DNA from: a virus | IMG/VR virus record: IMGVR_UViG_3300050821_008083 | Location: 1 to 34,405 of that record | Direction: 5' to 3' (one strand) | DNA length: 34,405 bases | Part shown: positions 13,108-32,427 of the stretch, in pieces | Numbering within the stretch: position 1 is the first letter of the stretch | How the letters are laid out: every line of letters begins with the position of its first letter | Made by a program: the position numbers and the translations under genes | Notes under the pieces: model-generated | Seen by the model: the letters and a program-made list of their open reading frames with translations, nothing else | Database searches by the model: none | Told to the model about the DNA's origin: nothing

Positions 13108-13453
13108 AGATGTATTCCGCCGCCTGATCCCCAAACTACGGGCCGATGTTCCGCAGCCGGAACAGACCACACCCGAGCAAATGAAGGCGGTGATTGATCT
13201 CGCCGAGGAGTTCGACAAGCTGCAGAACTTGCCGGTCTGGGAAAAAATCCTGCGGCAAATGGGAGCGGAAGTGCAGGGCGAGCTGATCGAAGCGACCAAG
13301 TTCAAGTATGAGCCGGTTCGCCAGGTCGCGCACACGACGAGGTGGGACGCGAAACGGGAACTTTTGGACAACGTGCTCGGCTGGATGGAAGCCACTCAGA
13401 ACGAGCGCACAAGAATCATCAATGACTTTAAGGAAATGAAGGGAGTGGGCTAA
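13094..13453 (+). CDS. Small helical protein between portal and scaffold
   Basis: This 119-residue protein probably starts at GTG 13094 inside the last codons of portal, with AGGAG at 13079-13083 and a 10-base spacer. It is all-helical and charged (AVIDLAEEFDKLQNL, RELLDNVLGWMEATQ). Its place between portal and scaffold suggests an assembly chaperone or head-completion factor, but no family is recognised. Its TAA overlaps the ATG of the next gene. Confidence 0.65.
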   Translation: MQPLKDVFRRLIPKLRADVPQPEQTTPEQMKAVIDLAEEFDKLQNLPVWEKILRQMGAEVQGELIEATKFKYEPVRQVAHTTRWDAKRELLDNVLGWMEATQNERTRIINDFKEMKGVG

Positions 13454-14169
13454 TGGCGGAAGAGATTAAAACGGGATTTGAGTACAAGCTCGCGGACGGC
13501 AGCGTCGTGAAGGCCGAGAACGTGGAGGAGGCGTTCAAAAACGTCGCCAAAATGAAAGAGGACACGAGCGCGGCCCTGCGGGAAGAACGCGCCAAGCGTG
13601 AGGAAATGGAAGCGCGCATCAACACCATGCAAGCGGAGATCAATCAGCGCCCGCGCCCCGTTGAGCGCGACGAGAACGGCTTCAATAAGGATCACTACTT
13701 TCGCTTGGTGGGCGAGGACCCCATCTCGGCGCAGAACTATTTGGATGCGGCGCGCTTTGGTATCGGCGATCCGAACCAGGTTCCGGGTTATTTCCAGGGC
13801 ACCTTTCAAAAGGTATCGAATCTGGAGCAATCGACGCTCGCGGCGACCTTCGTGAACTCGCACCCGGACTTTCCGGGGGGCAATGACAACGCGCAGCAAT
13901 TGACGAAGGAAGTGATGCGCCTGCAGCAAGCCGGGCATCCTGTGAACATGGACACAATGGACCTCGCCTGGCGCAATTGCGTTGAGAACGAAACGATCAA
14001 GCCCATCGAGCCTCCGCAGGAACAAGAGGAGCCGAATCCCTCGCTCTCGGGCGGCGGGGCTGGCACGCTCGATGCCGAAACGACACGAGTCGAGGCCGAC
14101 GTGATGAGCGGCAAGATGAGCATGGCCGACTTTGAAAAATACCTCCGGTCCAAGGGAGCACTCAGTTGA
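13453..14169 (+). CDS. Probable scaffold protein
   Basis: This 238-residue protein has a charged coiled coil at residues 20-60 (AALREERAKREEMEAR), a central helical part, a flexible Pro/Glu/Gly linker (PPQEQEEPNPSLSGGG) and a small C-terminal helical end (MSMADFEKYLRSKG). Size, charge and position between portal and the capsid region fit a capsid assembly scaffold, whose C-terminal helix usually contacts the coat protein. Scaffolds share little sequence, so the call rests on architecture and context. The stop overlaps a TTG start of the next gene. Confidence 0.68.
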   Translation: MAEEIKTGFEYKLADGSVVKAENVEEAFKNVAKMKEDTSAALREERAKREEMEARINTMQAEINQRPRPVERDENGFNKDHYFRLVGEDPISAQNYLDAARFGIGDPNQVPGYFQGTFQKVSNLEQSTLAATFVNSHPDFPGGNDNAQQLTKEVMRLQQAGHPVNMDTMDLAWRNCVENETIKPIEPPQEQEEPNPSLSGGGAGTLDAETTRVEADVMSGKMSMADFEKYLRSKGALS

Positions 14170-14612
14170 TCGAGGTGTTTGTCGCATTCACGCGGGAATC
14201 GAATATCAGCGATCTGGAGAAAACGCTGGAGGCGTGGAATCTTCCGGGCCTGGAGCCCATCGCCATCCAGATCAAGCAGGGGAAAAAGTTCGAGCTGCAC
14301 CGCCGCGTGACGGCTGAAAGTGTTTCACGTGGAACATACATTCTGAGCGATATGATGTTCGGCCCATGCGAGGTGAAATTTGCGGAACTTGCCGAGCAGG
14401 CGCTTGGCGACAATCCCGACGCCGGGATGATTATCCCGAACGGAATTGTCATGGCGCGTGTCTGCAGGAAGGGGATCATCACGCACTGGCCGACTCCGCG
14501 CACAGTCACCTACACCGAGGAGCACGCGGAAGCCTATAAGCACGCGGGATATAAAGTCATTCCATGTCCATCAATTCACTGCCTCCCGTTAGCCGAGTCC
14601 TTGCCGTCGTAG
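14166..14612 (+). CDS. Glycosyltransferase-like protein, possibly degenerate
   Basis: This 148-residue protein starts at TTG, overlapping the scaffold stop as TTGA. It opens with strand IEVFVAFTRES and contains RRVTAESVSRGTYILSDMMFG, which lines up with the segment before and over the DxD site of the glycosyltransferase at 3717-4253, but with SDMM in place of DDD. That suggests a GT-A-like fold with a changed or lost metal site. Its 3' end overlaps the phosphatase gene by 49 bases. Function uncertain; it might assist the neighbouring transferase. Confidence 0.5.
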   Translation: MIEVFVAFTRESNISDLEKTLEAWNLPGLEPIAIQIKQGKKFELHRRVTAESVSRGTYILSDMMFGPCEVKFAELAEQALGDNPDAGMIIPNGIVMARVCRKGIITHWPTPRTVTYTEEHAEAYKHAGYKVIPCPSIHCLPLAESLPS

Positions 14613-15211
14613 TCCGTCACGGCAGGACCGCTTACAACGACCCCAAGCGCCCGAAGTTGCGCGCCTGGGACAACGTGCCGCTCAAAGAGGAAGGCCAGGA
14701 GGATATTCAGCTCACCGCCAATAAGCTGAAAATCTACAATCCGAAGCTCGTTTATTCCTCCGATCTCGCGCGGGACAGCCAAAGCGCCATCTTGATCGCC
14801 GAGATTTTGGGAAACATTCCGTTTGAGATCGACTACGCGCTGCGCACCGCCGACATGGGGACGCTCGCCGGGATGCTCGATGAGGATGCCGCGCCGCGCG
14901 TCTTGCGCTGGTATCAGAATCCGGGCGAGCCCGCGCCATCTGGAGAGACACGTTATGAATTTGAAAAGCGCATCTGGAAATTCATGGAACCGAAGCTGGA
15001 CCTCGCGCGCAGTGTGGCGGCATTTCGCCCGGTGATCTTTGTGACGCATGGCCGCGTCCTCGCGATGCTCGACTCGTTCTACAACATGAAGCTTCCCGAG
15101 GACGGCAGTATGCCCTTCCCTGGCGGCTTTGGCGTCATCCGCTGCAACATGGATGGCGTCGATACCTTTGAACTCATTGGAGAAAGTGAGCCTGTGCATT
15201 TTGACACCTGA
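14564..15211 (+). CDS. Histidine phosphatase superfamily protein
   Basis: This 215-residue protein belongs to branch 1 of the histidine phosphatase (phosphoglycerate mutase-like) family, which moves or removes phosphate through a phospho-histidine. VVRHGR places the nucleophile at H19 with R18; YSSDLARDSQSA supplies the second Arg near residue 70; GETRYEF gives the general acid near E128; and THGRV gives the second His at H162. All core residues are present, so it should be active. Such enzymes are uncommon among virion genes. Lying between two glycosyltransferase-type genes, it may dephosphorylate a sugar or nucleotide-sugar precursor. The ATG lies within the upstream gene and has no clear ribosome site. 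Confidence 0.8.
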   Translation: MSINSLPPVSRVLAVVVRHGRTAYNDPKRPKLRAWDNVPLKEEGQEDIQLTANKLKIYNPKLVYSSDLARDSQSAILIAEILGNIPFEIDYALRTADMGTLAGMLDEDAAPRVLRWYQNPGEPAPSGETRYEFEKRIWKFMEPKLDLARSVAAFRPVIFVTHGRVLAMLDSFYNMKLPEDGSMPFPGGFGVIRCNMDGVDTFELIGESEPVHFDT

Positions 15212-15965
15212 ACCGCTGAAAATTGTTTGCGGCATTCTCTCGACCTATGAACGGAACGGCTGGCACCATCCCTCAATCACTCAATTCTTCGCCGATCTGC
15301 CGTTCAAGACCGGCTACGGATTCCGCGTAGTTCCCATCAACAATTTCGTTCCGGCTGCGGCGGGGCGCAATGTGTTCTGCAGAAATTTCAAGGACACGGA
15401 TGCGGACTGGCTCTGTATGATCGACAACGACATGGCGCTCCCGGAGAATCTGTTTGACGCAATCAAGGACGCGCCCGCCGATGCGGGGATCGTTGTGCCA
15501 TCGTTTTACCTGTGGGACCAAACGAAATCAAGGCTCGTTCTGTGTTGGGGTTTGGACAACGAACCGGAAAGAACGACGCCGACCGCGAGGTTCGGTCCTG
15601 GCTTCCACGAATTGTCGAAATGCGGCACGGGCGTGATCTTCATCAAGCCGTCTGTTCTGCGCGCCATGACCTATCCCTACTTCCGCTATCTCTACAATGA
15701 GGATCAAGGAATGGCCGGGACGGAGGATATTCAGTTTTGCCTCACCGCCCGCTCGGGCGGCGCGAAGATTTACGGCAACGCTTCCGTGACGGTCGGCCAT
15801 TATCACAGCGTGGAACTGAGCACCCTTTGGAGTTGGGCCGAAAGCGTATACGGCGAGAAAAAGATTGACACGCAGAGTGACACGAGCGTAGAGTCCTCGC
15901 ATCTGGACGCGGCAAGTCCTGCCGTCCCGCAAGAAGCAAAAGCGAGTCCCGCACAAGCTTCTTAG
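15186..15965 (+). CDS. Glycosyltransferase, GT2-like
   Basis: This roughly 259-residue protein is a GT-A-fold glycosyltransferase. It opens with KIVCGILSTYER, has AAAGRNVFCRNF before the core LCMIDNDMALPENL with a DND metal site at residues 80-82, then GTGVIFIKPSVL, and GTEDIQFCLTARSGGAKIYG, the usual EDxxF(C/W) base region of GT2 enzymes, followed by GHYHS. The C-terminal 40 residues are a flexible Ser/Ala/Pro tail. The start is uncertain: GTG 15186 is given, but TTG 15201 or TTG 15177 are possible. It overlaps the phosphatase gene and directly precedes the capsid region, so it may act on virion or host-surface glycans. Confidence 0.75.
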   Translation: MSLCILTPEPLKIVCGILSTYERNGWHHPSITQFFADLPFKTGYGFRVVPINNFVPAAAGRNVFCRNFKDTDADWLCMIDNDMALPENLFDAIKDAPADAGIVVPSFYLWDQTKSRLVLCWGLDNEPERTTPTARFGPGFHELSKCGTGVIFIKPSVLRAMTYPYFRYLYNEDQGMAGTEDIQFCLTARSGGAKIYGNASVTVGHYHSVELSTLWSWAESVYGEKKIDTQSDTSVESSHLDAASPAVPQEAKASPAQAS

Positions 15966-16035: not shown

Positions 16036-17016
16036 ATGGCCTATTCGCCTGCTGGGAATACCACCCAGACTGCGGGTTTAGCGCATCTAGCAACGGTTTG
16101 GTACAACCGGCGCGCCCTCGATCAGCTCAAAAAGCGCTTCCGCTTCTACAACGCCTGCGAACCGGACATGGTTCCGCGCAGGTCGGGCAAGACGGTGCAG
16201 TGGTTCCGCTACCAGCTCCTTGGTGCGAACACCACGCCCGCGCCCGAAGGGACTGTCAGTAACTCCAACACCCTCGGCTCGATCACGCTCTCCGGTACGG
16301 TGTCCGAGTATTCGGACTTCATTACCGTCTCCACGCTCCTCGATGAAACCGCCATCGATCCCATCGTACAGAACGCCGCCGAGCAGCTCGGTTATTCGGC
16401 TGGCCTGTCCGTGGACACGATTATCAAGGCGGCGTTTGACGGCCAGGCGAGCGCCGTCCTTTCCCCGGCCACGCTCGGCACCTTCGCGACGATTGACGAC
16501 CTGCGGCGCTGCAAGGCGCTCCTCGAAGGCGTGGATGTGCGCCCCAAGGACGACAAGTACTACTACTGCATCATGCACCCGTACATCATCTACGACATTA
16601 AGAGTGACAACACGGCGGGCGGCTTTATCGATCTCATGAAGTGGGCCGATCCGAAAGTCTTTTTGGAACCGCCGAATCCGTTCGATGATCCGGTGGGCGT
16701 GGTCGAGAACATCAAGATTTGGGCCACCACCAATGTCACAACGAGCGGCTCTGCCCCCAACGTCCTGTACTCGGCCTATGTGGTCGGGCGCGGCGCTGCG
16801 GGCGCGGTAGACCTGCAGGGCTCCGGTCCCTCGCGCGTAGAGGACCCCTCCAAGCAGCAATTCCGAATCAACGTGATTCGCGGCGGCCCGCAGATCGCGG
16901 ACCCTGCCGGAATGATCGGCGCGGCGGTTTCCTACCGCTACGTGTTCCTCACGCAAATTCTGGATACGGTCAACCTGCGCTACCGGATTTTCAAACCGGA
17001 CGCGAGCCTCGTGTAA
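16036..17016 (+). CDS. Major capsid protein, N4-gp56-like
   Basis: This 326-residue protein resembles the N4-gp56 family of major coat proteins, which form the icosahedral shell with an HK97-type fold. Recognisable parts are the N-terminal ATVWYNRRALDQLKKRF, the QWFRYQLL stretch, a flexible E-loop-like TPAPEGTVSNSNTLGSI, TVSEYSDFITVSTLLDETAIDP, and the long alpha helix with GYSAGLSVDTIIKAAFDG. The C-terminal part (MHPYIIYDIKSD, SYRYVFLTQILD) is typical of the P-domain and final strand. AGGGG 6 bases before the ATG and the position after scaffold support the call. Confidence 0.88.
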   Translation: MAYSPAGNTTQTAGLAHLATVWYNRRALDQLKKRFRFYNACEPDMVPRRSGKTVQWFRYQLLGANTTPAPEGTVSNSNTLGSITLSGTVSEYSDFITVSTLLDETAIDPIVQNAAEQLGYSAGLSVDTIIKAAFDGQASAVLSPATLGTFATIDDLRRCKALLEGVDVRPKDDKYYYCIMHPYIIYDIKSDNTAGGFIDLMKWADPKVFLEPPNPFDDPVGVVENIKIWATTNVTTSGSAPNVLYSAYVVGRGAAGAVDLQGSGPSRVEDPSKQQFRINVIRGGPQIADPAGMIGAAVSYRYVFLTQILDTVNLRYRIFKPDASLV

Positions 17017-17028
17017 GGGAGACGACGA

Positions 17029-17619
17029 ATGCCGAACGCAAATGTGATTCAACGGTTTGTCGGGGCCAACTCCCCGGCGCAGGGCGCGAACGTCATTCCC
17101 TCGATCACGCTCGTCACCACCACGGAGCAGCTCTTCGCCGTGCAATCGGGCGGCACGGCCATTATTGCGCCATTCCCTCCCGGCCAACTCCTCGGCGCGA
17201 CCGCTGCACCGAGCTTCGCATCGGGGTATGACGGCTTCCCGTTCAAGGTCCGCGCGGCCTTTAAGACCACCACGGCGGGCACCTCCACGATTATTTTCAA
17301 TATTTACGCGAACCAGGTCGGCACCACCATCACGGCGGGTAACAAAGTCGCGACCATTACGAGCCAATCGCTCGTGACTGCCTCGACTTCCGGGTGGTTG
17401 GAGGCGTATCTGATCTGGGATTCCATTGGGAAAACGCTTTCCGGTGGCCAGCAAGGCGGATTCGGAACCACGGTCGTGACCGGCAACGCCGCGCTCACGA
17501 ACACGGCGATTTCCATCCCCGCGCTTTCCAATTTGAACTTTGCCGCGAGCGCCACGAACGGCTCCAGCGTCGTGGGCAATATCGTGACGCTGACTGAATT
17601 TGTTGTTGAGACGGTGTAA
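17029..17619 (+). CDS. Beta-rich virion accessory protein behind capsid
   Basis: This 196-residue beta-rich protein follows the capsid gene with GGGAGA before its ATG. Ser, Thr, Gly and Ala dominate, with strands PFKVRAAFK, TSTIIFNIYAN and AYLIWDSIG. It is a paralogue of the product of 6462-7013. Position suggests a decoration (cement) or head-vertex protein, or a small tail protein. No family is assigned. Confidence 0.72.
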   Translation: MPNANVIQRFVGANSPAQGANVIPSITLVTTTEQLFAVQSGGTAIIAPFPPGQLLGATAAPSFASGYDGFPFKVRAAFKTTTAGTSTIIFNIYANQVGTTITAGNKVATITSQSLVTASTSGWLEAYLIWDSIGKTLSGGQQGGFGTTVVTGNAALTNTAISIPALSNLNFAASATNGSSVVGNIVTLTEFVVETV

Positions 17620-19395: not shown

Positions 19396-20658
19396 ATGCC
19401 GTCAACTTATTCGCCCCAAGACGCGATCAATCTCGTGCAGACCTACGCGCACGGCGCGCCTCTCGTCGTGCCTGCCGCGAATATCGTGGACATGATCTCA
19501 AGCGCGATCTGGCGCTACTACCCTTGGGGCTGGTCCATCAATTCCTTCACGCAAACGAACATGGTGCAGCTCACGCAAGGCGCGGGCGCGCCGCCGACCG
19601 GGGGAGCGCAATTTACCGGGAATCGCCAGGATTACACCATCACGGGCGCATGGTTTACATACCCGATCAACATCCAGTTCGGAGGCGTCACCAATAATAA
19701 TTTCGGCGGCGGTTTCATTGTGCAGACGACGCCTAATGGTCTCTCGGAAGTCGGCACGACGGTCACGATCAACACGCTCTATCCGCACAACCTGCCGACC
19801 GGCGCAACGCTCGCAGGAACGACCGGCACAATTGTTTGTGACGCAAACACTGCTTGGAACGGCTTGACGGTTACGATCACGACCGTTTCGACGAATCAAC
19901 AAATCGTCGGAACGGTCTCGCCGTCAGGGCTCCCCGCGTCGGGCGGATCGGGCGCTCCGCTTATCCTACGACCGCTCAAGATGCGCCTCGCGCGCCTGGA
20001 TACCAATCCCCCGGAATATCGGGAACTTGCCGCGCTTGCGAATCTCTCTCCCGAACTCTCGCGCACGGCGGGAATCGACACGATGGGCGCGGTCGGATGG
20101 TTCGCTTCGCAAAGTTTCTTCCGGCTCATGAATTCGCCGCAGGTTTCGCAGGGACAAATCATTCAGCTCCTTGGCGAATACCAAGCGCGGCCCGCGAAGG
20201 TGACGGCGGCGAACATGACGACCCCGTTCCCCTTTCCCGATGACTATTTCAACGTCATGGACGCGGGAGTCTTATGGAAGGTCTACCAGCTCACCGACGA
20301 TCCGCGCGCGGGCGGTGCGCAGCAATCGAAAAACGGATCGATGATCCAGCAATACACGGGACAGCTCGGACACTTTATGTCCCTACTCCTGGAGATGGCA
20401 AGGACTGAGGACTTAAATGCAGGAGACGAATTTATGTATCCAGAGTCTCCTTTAGGGGTAGGGCGCTCTTATTGGCCCGGACTTTTATGGTGTTTAGAAT
20501 CAGTAGGATACAAGTGTGTGTATACGTTTACTCCTTGCCTCGTTTTTCAGTTAAAAGATTGCGGTGCCTTACAAAGACCAGAATTCCGAAGCTGCAATTG
20601 CAAGCCGCCAGCGAACGTCAAGAACTTACGAGGCAAACCATCGCGAGAAGCGGCGTGA
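19396..20658 (+). CDS. Head-tail adaptor-like protein with altered 3' end
   Basis: This 420-residue frame holds an N-terminal helical region (DAINLVQTYAHGAPLVVPAAN), a beta insertion (about residues 60-190), and a helical region with ELAALANLSPELSR and QIIQLLGEYQARPAK. Position after the capsid genes and before the tail nozzle fits an adaptor or tail-tube-A type protein, by inference. From about codon 335 (base 20400) codon use changes sharply to AT-rich third positions (many TTA, GTA, TCT, GGA), and the last 95 bases overlap an HNH gene in another frame. The true ancestral C-terminus may have been replaced or moved by the HNH insertion. Confidence 0.65.
   Translation: MPSTYSPQDAINLVQTYAHGAPLVVPAANIVDMISSAIWRYYPWGWSINSFTQTNMVQLTQGAGAPPTGGAQFTGNRQDYTITGAWFTYPINIQFGGVTNNNFGGGFIVQTTPNGLSEVGTTVTINTLYPHNLPTGATLAGTTGTIVCDANTAWNGLTVTITTVSTNQQIVGTVSPSGLPASGGSGAPLILRPLKMRLARLDTNPPEYRELAALANLSPELSRTAGIDTMGAVGWFASQSFFRLMNSPQVSQGQIIQLLGEYQARPAKVTAANMTTPFPFPDDYFNVMDAGVLWKVYQLTDDPRAGGAQQSKNGSMIQQYTGQLGHFMSLLLEMARTEDLNAGDEFMYPESPLGVGRSYWPGLLWCLESVGYKCVYTFTPCLVFQLKDCGALQRPEFRSCNCKPPANVKNLRGKPSREAA
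20421..20451 (+). promoter_or_regulatory. Hairpin masking a Shine-Dalgarno site
   Basis: AGGAGAC (20421-20427) pairs perfectly with GTCTCCT (20445-20451) across a 17-base loop. The 5' arm contains AGGAG, spaced 8 bases from an in-frame ATG at 20434 that lies in the loop. Homing endonuclease genes in phages are known to be controlled by such ribosome-site hairpins, but here the ATG is in the frame of the upstream gene, not of the HNH gene at 20564, so the target is unclear. Confidence 0.4.
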
Positions 20659-21100
20659 AGAAAAACGAACCGCATACTGGAGCGATCCCGACGCGGAGCG
20701 TGAACGCAATCGCGATCTCAAAAAGCGCTGGCGAGTTGAGGGTAAATGCGTAAATTGCGGCAGCCTCAACGATCTATTGCCGAAAACGCTGTGCTCGGGT
20801 TGCGCTCCCAAAATAGCGGCAGCAACGAAAAAGTGGCATCTGCGCCTACGCCGCGAAGCGTTCAATGCCTACGGTGGCCCGCAATGTAAATGTTGCGGGA
20901 TTTTAATTGACGACTTTTTGACCATCGATCACATCAATGGCGGCGGAAATCGGCAAAAGGAAGAGCTTGGAGGCGGTGGCGTGAAACTTTACGCATGGCT
21001 GAAACGTGAAGGTTATCCGCCCGGTTTCCAAGTCCTCTGCATGAACTGCAATTTTGCAAAGGGCAAGTATGGCCAATGCCCGCACGAGCGTGGGGTCTAA
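20564..21100 (+). CDS. HNH homing-type endonuclease
   Basis: This 178-residue protein has a basic N-terminal region (RKEKRREEKR-like, residues 25-58), a first four-Cys knuckle (C62, C65, C77, C80), and a C-terminal HNH nuclease domain: CKCCG (108-111), LTIDHINGGG with the catalytic DH at 122-123, a helical LYAWLKREGYP segment, and LCMNCNFAKG (159-168), ending QCPH. Such free-standing enzymes cut DNA and spread by copying into cut sites. It starts at GTG with no visible ribosome site, a few bases after an in-frame stop, inside the end of the upstream gene. Its TAA overlaps the ATG of the next tail gene. Confidence 0.85.
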   Translation: MPYKDQNSEAAIASRQRTSRTYEANHREKRREEKRTAYWSDPDAERERNRDLKKRWRVEGKCVNCGSLNDLLPKTLCSGCAPKIAAATKKWHLRLRREAFNAYGGPQCKCCGILIDDFLTIDHINGGGNRQKEELGGGGVKLYAWLKREGYPPGFQVLCMNCNFAKGKYGQCPHERGV

Positions 21101-24627: not shown

Positions 24628-25509
24628 GTGAATTCCCTCGTCCACACCCGCATTGTCATCGATATTGCCACAGGCAGGGTGATTGAGTGTGATTCCTTGG
24701 CGTACGAGGGAGCTTGGGAGTTGGCCAAGGGGGGCAACTCCCAATCAGAAATGCAGCAAGCGAATCAGGTAAGCCAGCAACAGCTCCAACTTCAGCAACA
24801 GCAACTCCAGATGCAGCAAAAGCAGCTCGGGATGGTGAATCCCTCCCTCCAGGCCATAATTTCCAATGGTGGGATGCTCCCCGCGCAGCAAGCCGCGATG
24901 ACCACCCAGGCCATGAACGGCCTCGGCCAGCAATACCAAAACCTCTATGGATCGCTCTCCTCAACGCTTGCTGCACGCGGCCTTACAGGCGGTCAAAACG
25001 CTGGGGGTGGCGGCATTGCGGCAAGCTTTGGTGCGCTCGGCGCGCAGCAAGCGGGGCAGGAATCGCAACTCCTGAACGACATCCAGCTCCAGAAGGGCCA
25101 GCAACTCCAAGGCGCTCTCGGCATGGGCCTTGGGGAAGGATCGATGTATGGGTCCCAAGCTGGGCAGGCGGGCGGTCTTGGCGTTGGCGCACTCGGCAGC
25201 GCCGTGACAGCGGCGAACAATGCCGACCAGGCGCAGACGGGATTCTGGGGATCGCTTGTCGGCGGTCTTGCTGGTCTCGGTTCAGCGGGAATTTTGAAAT
25301 GCTGGGTGGCCGCAGAGCTGTATGGCGGATGGTTCGCCCCGGAAACGGTCACGATTCGCGCGTGGCTTTTCTCCACATGGTACATGGCTCCATTTTGTTT
25401 CTTCTACCGGATCATGGGCCGACGCTGGGCGGAACTTATTCGCCAGAAGCCCATGCTAAGGCGCTCAACTAAATTACTTTTCGATCTGTTTTTGCGGTGC
25501 GCCGAATGA
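24628..25509 (+). CDS. Internal virion-type protein with Gln-rich coiled coil
   Basis: This 293-residue protein has an N-terminal RIVIDIATGRVIE segment of a kind seen in phage internal or tail proteins, then a Gln-rich coiled coil (about residues 48-75), a Gly/Ala/Gln-rich middle, a hydrophobic FWGSLVGGLAGLGSAGI patch, and a C-terminal domain of about 65 residues starting CWVAAELYGGWFAPET and ending in a helical LIRQKPMLRR stretch, a terminal module found in many phage proteins. It likely enters the host with the DNA. The start is GTG; its TGA overlaps the HNH gene ATG. Confidence 0.65.
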   Translation: MNSLVHTRIVIDIATGRVIECDSLAYEGAWELAKGGNSQSEMQQANQVSQQQLQLQQQQLQMQQKQLGMVNPSLQAIISNGGMLPAQQAAMTTQAMNGLGQQYQNLYGSLSSTLAARGLTGGQNAGGGGIAASFGALGAQQAGQESQLLNDIQLQKGQQLQGALGMGLGEGSMYGSQAGQAGGLGVGALGSAVTAANNADQAQTGFWGSLVGGLAGLGSAGILKCWVAAELYGGWFAPETVTIRAWLFSTWYMAPFCFFYRIMGRRWAELIRQKPMLRRSTKLLFDLFLRCAE

Positions 25510-25970
25510 TTCCCGCAACTGTAACTGGTCGCGCCCGGTCAGGCTACCGGCATGGAGACGCTCGCAGGAACCGGCAAGCTCCCGAACACCACACGTGGTC
25601 GATGATGAAATTCCGTTGCTGTAATCCCAAGGCGACCAGTTTTGAATATTATGGTGACCGAGGGATTAAAGTCTGCAAGCGCTGGCTGGACAGCTATGAA
25701 AATTTTCTAGCTGACATGGGACGTAAACCCTCTCCCAAACATTCCATTGAACGGATCGACAACGACGGGCATTACGAGCCTGGCAATTGCAAGTGGGCGA
25801 CTCGGGCAGAGCAAATGGGCAATCGTAGAGCATATAAAATCCGGGAATTTTGTACCAAGGGACACCGGATGAACCCCGAAAATACTTACATTTTTCCAAA
25901 TACGCACCGCAGAAGGTGTCGTGAATGTTTTAAGAATTGGCATAAAAATTGGTACGAGGGGGCACAATGA
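25506..25970 (+). CDS. HNH-type endonuclease with C-terminal zinc finger
   Basis: This 154-residue protein matches the common free-standing phage HNH family: EHHTWSMMKFRC, YYGDRGIKVCKRW (residues 48-60), then KHSIERIDNDGHYEPGNCKWAT (78-99), where H79, N86 and N94 supply the nuclease core, then AEQMGNRR. The last 40 residues form CTKGHRMN and RRRCRECF, a CxxxH...CxxC zinc finger used for DNA recognition. The start is ATG 25506, forming ATGA with the upstream stop, and its own stop forms ATGA with the next ATG, so the gene is inserted without disturbing either neighbour. Confidence 0.82.
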   Translation: MIPATVTGRARSGYRHGDARRNRQAPEHHTWSMMKFRCCNPKATSFEYYGDRGIKVCKRWLDSYENFLADMGRKPSPKHSIERIDNDGHYEPGNCKWATRAEQMGNRRAYKIREFCTKGHRMNPENTYIFPNTHRRRCRECFKNWHKNWYEGAQ

Positions 25971-30855: not shown

Positions 30856-31257
30856 ATGAGTTGGCTGAAAAAGATCGGAGCAGAAATTGCTAAAATCCTG
30901 GGGATCGTGCAGAAGGCCGAGCCGACCGTGGTAAGTTTCACGGAAGCGCTCTTGCCGCAATTCGCGCCCTTCATCGCGAGCGCGGATACCATCTTTCAGA
31001 ACATCGTCAAGGAAATCGTGGCGGCGGAAACGGCGGCTGCGGCTGCAGGACAGTCGGGAACCGGCCCCCAGAAGCTCGCCGCTGTGCTTGCTAACGTCGG
31101 TCCCATGCTGGACACCTGGATCGCGTCCAACTTCCCCGGCGCGGCCAAGCTCGCCGATGCGACGAAAGCAGGGCTCGTGAACGCGGTGGTGGCGGTGCTG
31201 AATGACGTACAGCCTGCAGCTCCCGCGACCACCGCGCCCGCAGCGCCAGCGGCTTAA
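30856..31257 (+). CDS. Small amphipathic protein behind lysis genes
   Basis: This 133-residue protein starts at ATG with GAGGAGG 5 bases upstream. It begins with an amphipathic helix (WLKKIGAEIAKILGI), has a GTGPQKLAAVLANV motif seen in many phage proteins of unknown role near endolysins, and ends in an Ala/Pro tail. It closes the plus-strand run; its TAA shares the TTAA with the stop of the integrase on the other strand. Confidence 0.62.
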   Translation: MSWLKKIGAEIAKILGIVQKAEPTVVSFTEALLPQFAPFIASADTIFQNIVKEIVAAETAAAAAGQSGTGPQKLAAVLANVGPMLDTWIASNFPGAAKLADATKAGLVNAVVAVLNDVQPAAPATTAPAAPAA

Positions 31258-32381
31258 TCGCCAACGCCTGAGAACCGATCAAATGCCGCCGTGGCGCGCT
31301 TGTGAACTTCCGCGTCGCGGATATTGGCTTTGGCCGCGTACCGCAGGAGCGTGTCCGGCGAGACGTGGCCCACCCATTTCATAACTTCGGGAACGCTGTG
31401 GCCGTCGCGCAGCCACCGGGTGATGCAAGTGGAACGGAACTTGTGATCGTCCACTCGGCCACCGATCTTTGCTTTATCGGCCACGCGCTTCACGATCCGC
31501 AAAAGATGCAGGTCGGCGTGCCCCTTGGAATTGGGGAACACGAGAGCGGTCCTTGCGAGCTTCATCCCCTCCATGCGGTCCTTGATCTTGATCGTAAGCC
31601 ACACCGGAACCGGAACGTCGCGCTGCGATTCGACCGTCTTGGTATTCCAGTCCGTTTTCGGTTGCACGGTCCAGACCGAATGCTTAAAATCAATGTCGCC
31701 AAAGCAAAGGTGGGCAAGCTCTCCAGAGCGGAGCCCGGAGCACAAGAAGGAGTTGAGCACCAAGCGCTCCTCGCCAGTCGCGTGGTTCAGGAGCGCATTG
31801 ATCTCATCGTCCGTGTACTCCTCGGGCTCCCGCTCTGGTTTCGGTGGCCAGTCGTCCGCGCGCAGTTTCGTTTGCACCCCGCACCACTTGAGGAAAACCA
31901 TCACATTGAGGAAATTGTTGTAGACGCTTCGTTCAGAAAGTCCCTCGCCCGTACGCAAGTAGAGTTTGAATCCAAGCATGGCTTCTCGTGTGAAGGACTG
32001 AACATCGGTCTTTCGTGTGGCCGCTTTGAAATAGCGGAGGCTGTTGGAATATGCCTGCCAAGTCTTACGCGCCTTGTTGGCCTTGATCTCTTCGAGGTAG
32101 TCATCGATCCGGCGCGTTAGGGAATTGTCTGGAGCGGTGAGTTCTACGGGAGCGGTGAGGCCGCGCCGCGTGTATTCTTTCGCGAGGTCCATCGATTGAA
32201 TGTCGGCAACGGCTTGGGCGAAATTCTTTCCGAGCGGCTTCACCTGGCGGTGGCCATCGGCGTCTGTATACCGCGCGTAGAACGATCCCGCGCCGTCCGG
32301 CATGAGGTAGTTCCCTTTTTTCTGTTGAACAGTGACGAAGCGCTGATTGATCCGGGCGAGTAGCGTGAACTTGGCTTTCAT
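31254..32381 (-). CDS. int: Tyrosine integrase
   Basis: This 375-residue protein is a tyrosine recombinase that would join phage and host DNA at att sites. The N-terminal part (about residues 1-75) is an arm-type binding region, followed by a SAM-like core-binding domain (ARKTWQAYSNSLRYF, 104-118 region) and the catalytic domain with all residues: R218 (CSGLRSGEL), a Lys in the NTKTVESQ hairpin near 248, H313 and R316 (HKFR), H339 (WVGHVS) and the nucleophile Y348 (LLRYAA). ATG 32381 is chosen because AAGGAG lies 8 bases upstream; an earlier start would add 9 residues. It runs opposite to the virion genes and implies a temperate ancestry. Confidence 0.92.
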   Translation of the reverse strand: MKAKFTLLARINQRFVTVQQKKGNYLMPDGAGSFYARYTDADGHRQVKPLGKNFAQAVADIQSMDLAKEYTRRGLTAPVELTAPDNSLTRRIDDYLEEIKANKARKTWQAYSNSLRYFKAATRKTDVQSFTREAMLGFKLYLRTGEGLSERSVYNNFLNVMVFLKWCGVQTKLRADDWPPKPEREPEEYTDDEINALLNHATGEERLVLNSFLCSGLRSGELAHLCFGDIDFKHSVWTVQPKTDWNTKTVESQRDVPVPVWLTIKIKDRMEGMKLARTALVFPNSKGHADLHLLRIVKRVADKAKIGGRVDDHKFRSTCITRWLRDGHSVPEVMKWVGHVSPDTLLRYAAKANIRDAEVHKRATAAFDRFSGVGD

Positions 32382-32427
32382 GGTGTTTCTCCTTGAGTTC
32401 CACGTCATTGGGAACTCTACTGAGAAC

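Follow-up and report, generated by a model that had tools for sequence, protein, structure and literature searches.

A sugar-modification gene block between the scaffold-position and capsid genes in a clade of uncultured phages: a candidate virion-glycosylation cassette

The locus analyzed here raises the question of what two glycosyltransferase-like genes and a histidine phosphatase gene, lying between the scaffold and capsid genes of a phage, would act upon. The DNA is an IMG/VR virus record of 34,405 bases, the full length of which is referred to as the window. Its genes run in the order terminase (phrog_38), SU10-type portal, a scaffold-position gene, A, B, C, and major capsid protein. The first-pass annotation had described A, B, and C as an overlapping three-gene block between scaffold and capsid genes; this description was accurate, coordinates included, and the block recurs in 10 related contigs.

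Locus layout and the products of A, B, and C

The scaffold-position gene (13453..14169, + strand, 238 aa) lies between the portal and capsid genes and is kept in relatives; it was labeled "scaffold" from its position, and family profile searches gave no convincing match for its product. It is followed on the same strand by gene A (14166..14612, 148 aa, TTG start), gene B (14564..15211, 215 aa), gene C (15201..15965, approximately 254 aa, TTG start), and the major capsid protein gene (16036..17016, + strand, 326 aa), the product of which matched the phrog_1357 major head protein with an E-value of 2.1e-28. Directly 3' of the capsid gene, and adjoining it in relatives too, is a small Ser/Thr-rich gene (17029..17619, + strand, 196 aa) whose product had no family match in the family profile searches. 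The reading frames of A, B, and C are all open in the window. The scaffold stop and the A start overlap by 4 nt, as they also do in L005, L008-L010, L027, L031, and L058-L060, and the A/B overlap is 49 nt. With C starting at the TTG at 15201, the B/C overlap is 11 nt, which is the same as in L010, L013, and L015. Based on the starts used by relatives, TTG 15201 is the most likely start of C, the earlier starts at 15186 or 15129 being possible. These overlaps suggest that A, B, and C are translationally coupled with one another and with the head genes.

Gene A had been read as glycosyltransferase-like and lacking the DxD triad, and the absence of the triad was confirmed: the position is occupied by D62-M63-M64 in the window, and the triad is lost clade-wide except for DID in L012. 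An AlphaFold2 model of A (pLDDT 92.6) was compared by Foldseek and matched GT-A enzymes in the PDB (best E-value 1.1e-3, which is weak) and viral glycosyltransferase models (2.8e-5), with STIV A197 as the second structural match. The protein is predicted to form a small GT-A-like domain and is classed as GT-A-like rather than as an active enzyme. It had no match by tblastn in phage records, nor in Pfam, PHROGs, or NCBIfam. Profile comparison related it to longer, DDD-bearing proteins (HMM E-values 4.7e-18 to 8.7e-12). Compared with these long forms, the clade A proteins have lost the DxD, the acceptor part, an insert before a conserved CRKG stretch, and a C-terminal His-Gly-Arg; A is shortened to 89-92 aa in L010 and L013. 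For A, dN was 0.25-0.46 while dS was saturated, and third positions accounted for about half of the changes, a pattern of purifying selection that rules out a decaying pseudogene. A is probably a non-catalytic partner, a pseudo-enzyme that keeps a binding role. The change presumably ran from an intact ancestor to the degenerate A, a direction proposed without a rooted tree of A.

Two other identities for A were considered and rejected. A duplication of C is not indicated, since the A-C profile comparison gave a probability of 0.25% and no sequence relation was detectable. A nucleotidyltransferase was suggested by the top PDB match (7p97), the E-value of which is only 1.1e-3; the long relatives have the glycosyltransferase-type DDD, and by our own reading no N-terminal nucleotidyltransferase signature is present.

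The first-pass annotation had reported a clear DND site in C, and this was upheld. The motif, of the DxD type associated with metal and nucleotide sugar, is D80-N81-D82 (numbered from the start at 15186), and it is invariant in 10/10 sequences together with an ED (TED) and an HxH (GHxH) motif. C matched phrog_1574 (E-value 2.8e-9). In the window it has no Pfam family, and PF00535 was matched only weakly and only in relatives, with no match in the window record; since the Pfam GT2 models were not reached, C is named GT2-like and not GT2. The predicted model is of medium confidence (pLDDT 74), with a confident core, and returned 229 matches in the PDB at E <= 0.001, with glycosyltransferases and nucleotide-sugar enzymes at the top. 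The best solved match was STIV A197 (PDB 2c0n; E-value 2.8e-10, 18% identity), followed by Mimivirus R699 and then by protein glycosyltransferases such as COLGALT1. The fold of the predicted model is GT-A, a fold that matches many enzymes, so that the structural match cannot name the acceptor. A homolog of C (32% identity) is located at L047:7863-8702 in an acidobacterial metagenome-assembled genome with no recognized phage structural genes nearby, and may represent a remnant or a cellular relative.

Histidine phosphatases act on small phosphate esters. B is a member of this superfamily (His_Phos_1, PF00300, E-value 4.5e-25), and the phosphate pocket formed by R18, H19, R70, and H162 (RHG motif, second Arg, and second His) is invariant in 10/10 sequences. 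The earlier description of B as an intact histidine phosphatase holds for the family and the pocket and fails for the catalytic residue: the position of the canonical Glu of PhoE and GpgP is Thr95 in 10/10 sequences, with Asp97 two residues on in 9/10. The nearest solved proteins were GpgP (4pz9, E-value 1.1e-15) and the PhoE-type 1ebb at equal score, with many phosphoglycerate mutases next. Approximately 160 residues of B align with GpgP and PhoE-type phosphatases and share both phosphate-binding Arg and both His, whereas the catalytic Glu is theirs only. Proton donors vary across the histidine phosphatase superfamily (PMC12051542), and B may therefore be active on an undemanding substrate, or weakly active. 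Judged by sequence, its membership in branch 1 of the superfamily stands despite the missing Glu. The suggestion that B recycles sugar phosphates gained no direct support.

Conservation of the block and contents of the same site in relatives

IMG/VR contigs were scanned using the capsid protein as the single query, which imposes no selection for the presence of the cassette. Nine contigs were retrieved with capsids 79-96% identical to that of the window, and A, B, and C were found in the same order in 9/9, as far as each contig reaches (L007 starts just upstream of C). Scanning with C brought in one more contig, L005, which has the same order and ends within C. The order scaffold-A-B-C-capsid is therefore present in 11/11 clade contigs (the window and 10 others), as far as each reaches. 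A scan of viral contigs with the B sequence alone found no relative; a B profile found nine contigs, every one from the cassette clade. The cassette clade forms one branch of the capsid tree, with a support of 100/100. The proposed check, of whether the trio occurs as a unit at the scaffold-capsid position in related phages, thus came out positive.

The identity of A, B, and C to the window is mostly 30%-73%, and up to 85% for one partial C; the capsids are far more similar across the clade than these three proteins. All three genes are under purifying selection. This, together with the recurrence of the arrangement in 10/10 related contigs as far as each reaches, indicates that it is not due to chance. 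Two side observations were made within the clade. The capsid protein is much better conserved than the terminase or portal (84% vs 55% and 52% in L012), which is unusual. Homing-endonuclease-like ORFs lie between C and the capsid gene at L008:7446-7988, L012:7461-7982, and L013:7354-7881; the L008 ORF is a weak LAGLIDADG match and the L013 ORF belongs to the endonuclease VII family.

A capsid profile scan yielded eleven further contigs with capsid identities of 41-58%, and the A-B-C trio was present at the site in 0/11. In six of them (L028, L029, L033, L035, L036, and L037; capsids 41-57% identical), no sugar gene lies between the scaffold and capsid genes, and the gap holds at most one small or endonuclease-like ORF. 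In three others (L027, L031, and L034), the A relative is longer (194-213 aa) and its ADDDCLP triad is intact; a further glycosyltransferase-like gene comes after it, and L031 has a nucleotide-sugar epimerase gene as well. The remaining 2/11 stop short of the site. Scanning with the long form of A gave 13 contigs. In most, the scaffold gene is followed by long A and by GT2, epimerase, or methyltransferase genes, with the capsid gene next wherever the contig extends to it. In L062 the sugar set is three genes downstream of the capsid gene, and in L069 the long A is in a different gene context. Tunturi 3, an isolated Acidobacteriota podovirus with a 27% identical capsid, has an acetyltransferase in the scaffold-capsid slot. 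These varied contents at one site mark the slot as a recurrent home of sugar enzymes and other group-transferring enzymes. The six relatives with no sugar gene at the site, together with the downstream set of L062, show that the cassette is not required for this capsid fold.

Several unusual arrangements were recorded among the more distant contigs. At L034:8238-9795 (also in L066), an insert with a LAGLIDADG-like ORF (8444-8998 in L034) interrupts the capsid gene, as would be expected of an intron or an element of that kind. In L037, a histidine-phosphatase ORF at positions 1968-2678, upstream of the terminase gene, is apparently circularly permuted; it begins at the RGQxDxPLT region and has its RHCSTRLN (RHG-type) motif at the C-terminal end. 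At L046:7715-9456, two C-like proteins are encoded on either side of a methyltransferase-like ORF shortly after the gene in the capsid position.

The earlier note had drawn on glycosylated virions of actinobacterial phages, and nothing was found that supports such a link; among named phages, the closest capsid belongs to an Acidobacteriota phage and is only 27% identical. The capsid profile had no match in GTDB genomes or in 396 genomes from the phylum of the acidobacterial genome L047. Two HNH-endonuclease genes are also present in the late region of the window, at 20564-21100 and 25497-25970 (phrog_2255 and phrog_3377).

Proposed role of the block and competing explanations

We favor, at slightly better than even confidence, the view that the block is a virion-glycosylation cassette co-expressed with the head genes, in which C would glycosylate the capsid protein or another head protein. 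This proposal is built on the gene order, co-conservation, motifs, predicted folds, the relatedness of A to a form with an intact DxD, and purifying selection. It is further favored by the relatives that fill the same slot with other sugar genes (long A with DDD, GT2, epimerase, methyltransferase) or, in Tunturi 3, with an acetyltransferase, by the structural match of C to STIV A197, and by the lack of thymidylate-synthase family and GtrA matches in eight records. Weighing against it are the six relatives with no sugar gene at the site, the displaced set of L062, the missing Pfam GT2 match of C in the window, the wide range of enzymes matched by GT-A folds, the medium-confidence model of C, and the absent canonical Glu of B. 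A, B, and C would be translated together with the head proteins, and late, presuming the usual late expression of such operons. C would bind a nucleotide sugar and metal at the DND motif and transfer the sugar onto a head protein during head assembly; the capsid protein would be the first candidate acceptor and the small Ser/Thr-rich head protein (17029-17619) the second. A, as a GT-A core with its catalytic site lost, may persist as a partner of either C or the acceptor, serving in binding or specificity. B probably hydrolyzes a phosphate ester made or needed in the pathway, and would thereby clear or make a phosphate compound. A more elaborate proposal, which we regard as doubtful, is that A presents head proteins to the active C and that B is adapted to a readily cleaved phosphate of this pathway; the three would then form a dedicated protein-glycosylation machine, coupled to assembly and belonging to the core of the phage clade.

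The main rival is modification of the host surface, in which the enzymes would alter a host glycan and block superinfection or change the receptor, perhaps in lysogens too. A tyrosine integrase is encoded in the window (31254-32408, - strand) and in 4/7 related records searched, all four of the clade, which makes the phage probably temperate, and phage glycosyltransferases are described as changing the host serotype in work cited in PMC12619734. Host-surface modification is nevertheless unlikely, as the three genes are tied to the head operon and not to the lysogeny region. Neither component of Gtr-type O-antigen conversion, a GtrA flippase and a membrane-bound GtrB, was found: a search of 8 records with PF04138 gave no GtrA match, and none of A, B, and C showed a clear membrane segment in a simple hydropathy scan.

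In the pathway to which glucosyl-3-phosphoglycerate phosphatase belongs, its step follows that of a GT-A enzyme, and the tie of this enzyme (4pz9) for best solved relative of B raises the possibility that C, or an ancestor together with A, and B make a soluble compound, such as one of a glucosyl- or mannosyl-glycerate type, with the phosphate removed after sugar transfer. Such a small-molecule pathway is quite unlikely: the equal score of the PhoE-type protein and the many phosphoglycerate mutases next in order make the 4pz9 match nonspecific, B is without the catalytic Glu used by those enzymes, and a metabolic role leaves the fixed scaffold-capsid slot unexplained. A similarly low probability is assigned to the view that the scaffold-capsid gap simply tolerates insertions and gathers unrelated accessory genes with no role in the head. 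Homing-endonuclease-like genes in the same gap of L008, L012, L013, and L065 and the empty gap of some relatives fit this view, but the trio is kept clade-wide under purifying selection and sugar genes recur at the slot far beyond the clade.

Modification of DNA or nucleotides, in which C would glycosylate a hypermodified base of the phage DNA and B would handle a nucleotide-type phosphate, agrees with the action of histidine phosphatases on small esters and is very improbable. DNA-modifying virus glycosyltransferases are known (Pyle et al. 2024, as cited in PMC12619734), but the genes here are coupled to scaffold and capsid genes and not to replication genes, and DNA glycosylation would need a modified base, so that the lack of any PF00303 (thymidylate-synthase/hydroxymethylase family) match in 8 clade records counts against it; the search worked in control genomes, but the negative is weak since the records may be incomplete.

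Relation to known systems

Phage virion glycosylation is already known, and some uncultured phages have glycosyltransferase genes next to the capsid gene. The closest structural parallel to C is STIV A197, an essential small viral GT-A enzyme for which glycosylation of the STIV capsid protein has been proposed (PMC10551542). STIV itself is an unrelated archaeal virus with a different capsid fold and no scaffold-A-B-C operon, and A197 and C share no common sequence family. In the mycobacteriophages Che8 and Rita, the capsid protein is the presumed target of phage-encoded glycosyltransferases (cited in PMC11256854). Unlike the cassette, their genes are described there as near the 3' genome end and not between scaffold and capsid, the host is actinobacterial, and the accessible text describes no histidine phosphatase partner. 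The uncultured phages MW202711, MW202496, and MW202801 resemble the clade in having putative glycosyltransferase genes close to the capsid gene, the MW202711 protein being a distant relative of C, but these genes lie a few genes after the capsid gene instead of before it, and A and B are missing.

Searches of open-literature text, which left most subscription papers outside their coverage, returned no description of the trio or of a scaffold-capsid sugar slot, and a DNA search of a phage collection with the 4-kb region gave no match. The genomic part of the present account is solid, and the chemistry is predicted. Virion glycosylation in tailed phages is known from few cases, and in the mycobacteriophage case consulted the enzymes are encoded a long way from that of the capsid. 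Here, diverse uncultured phages place sugar genes in one recurrent scaffold-capsid slot whose contents are interchangeable, which makes the acceptor guessable and directly testable. If A is a kept remnant of an active transferase, it would be an uncommon viral pseudo-glycosyltransferase with a retained role. A separate gene set was observed in MW202801 (L071:6398-10732), a podovirus with a distantly related capsid, where Fe-S oxidoreductase, two glycosyltransferase, PhyH, methyltransferase, and NodB-like genes are located shortly 3' of the capsid gene.
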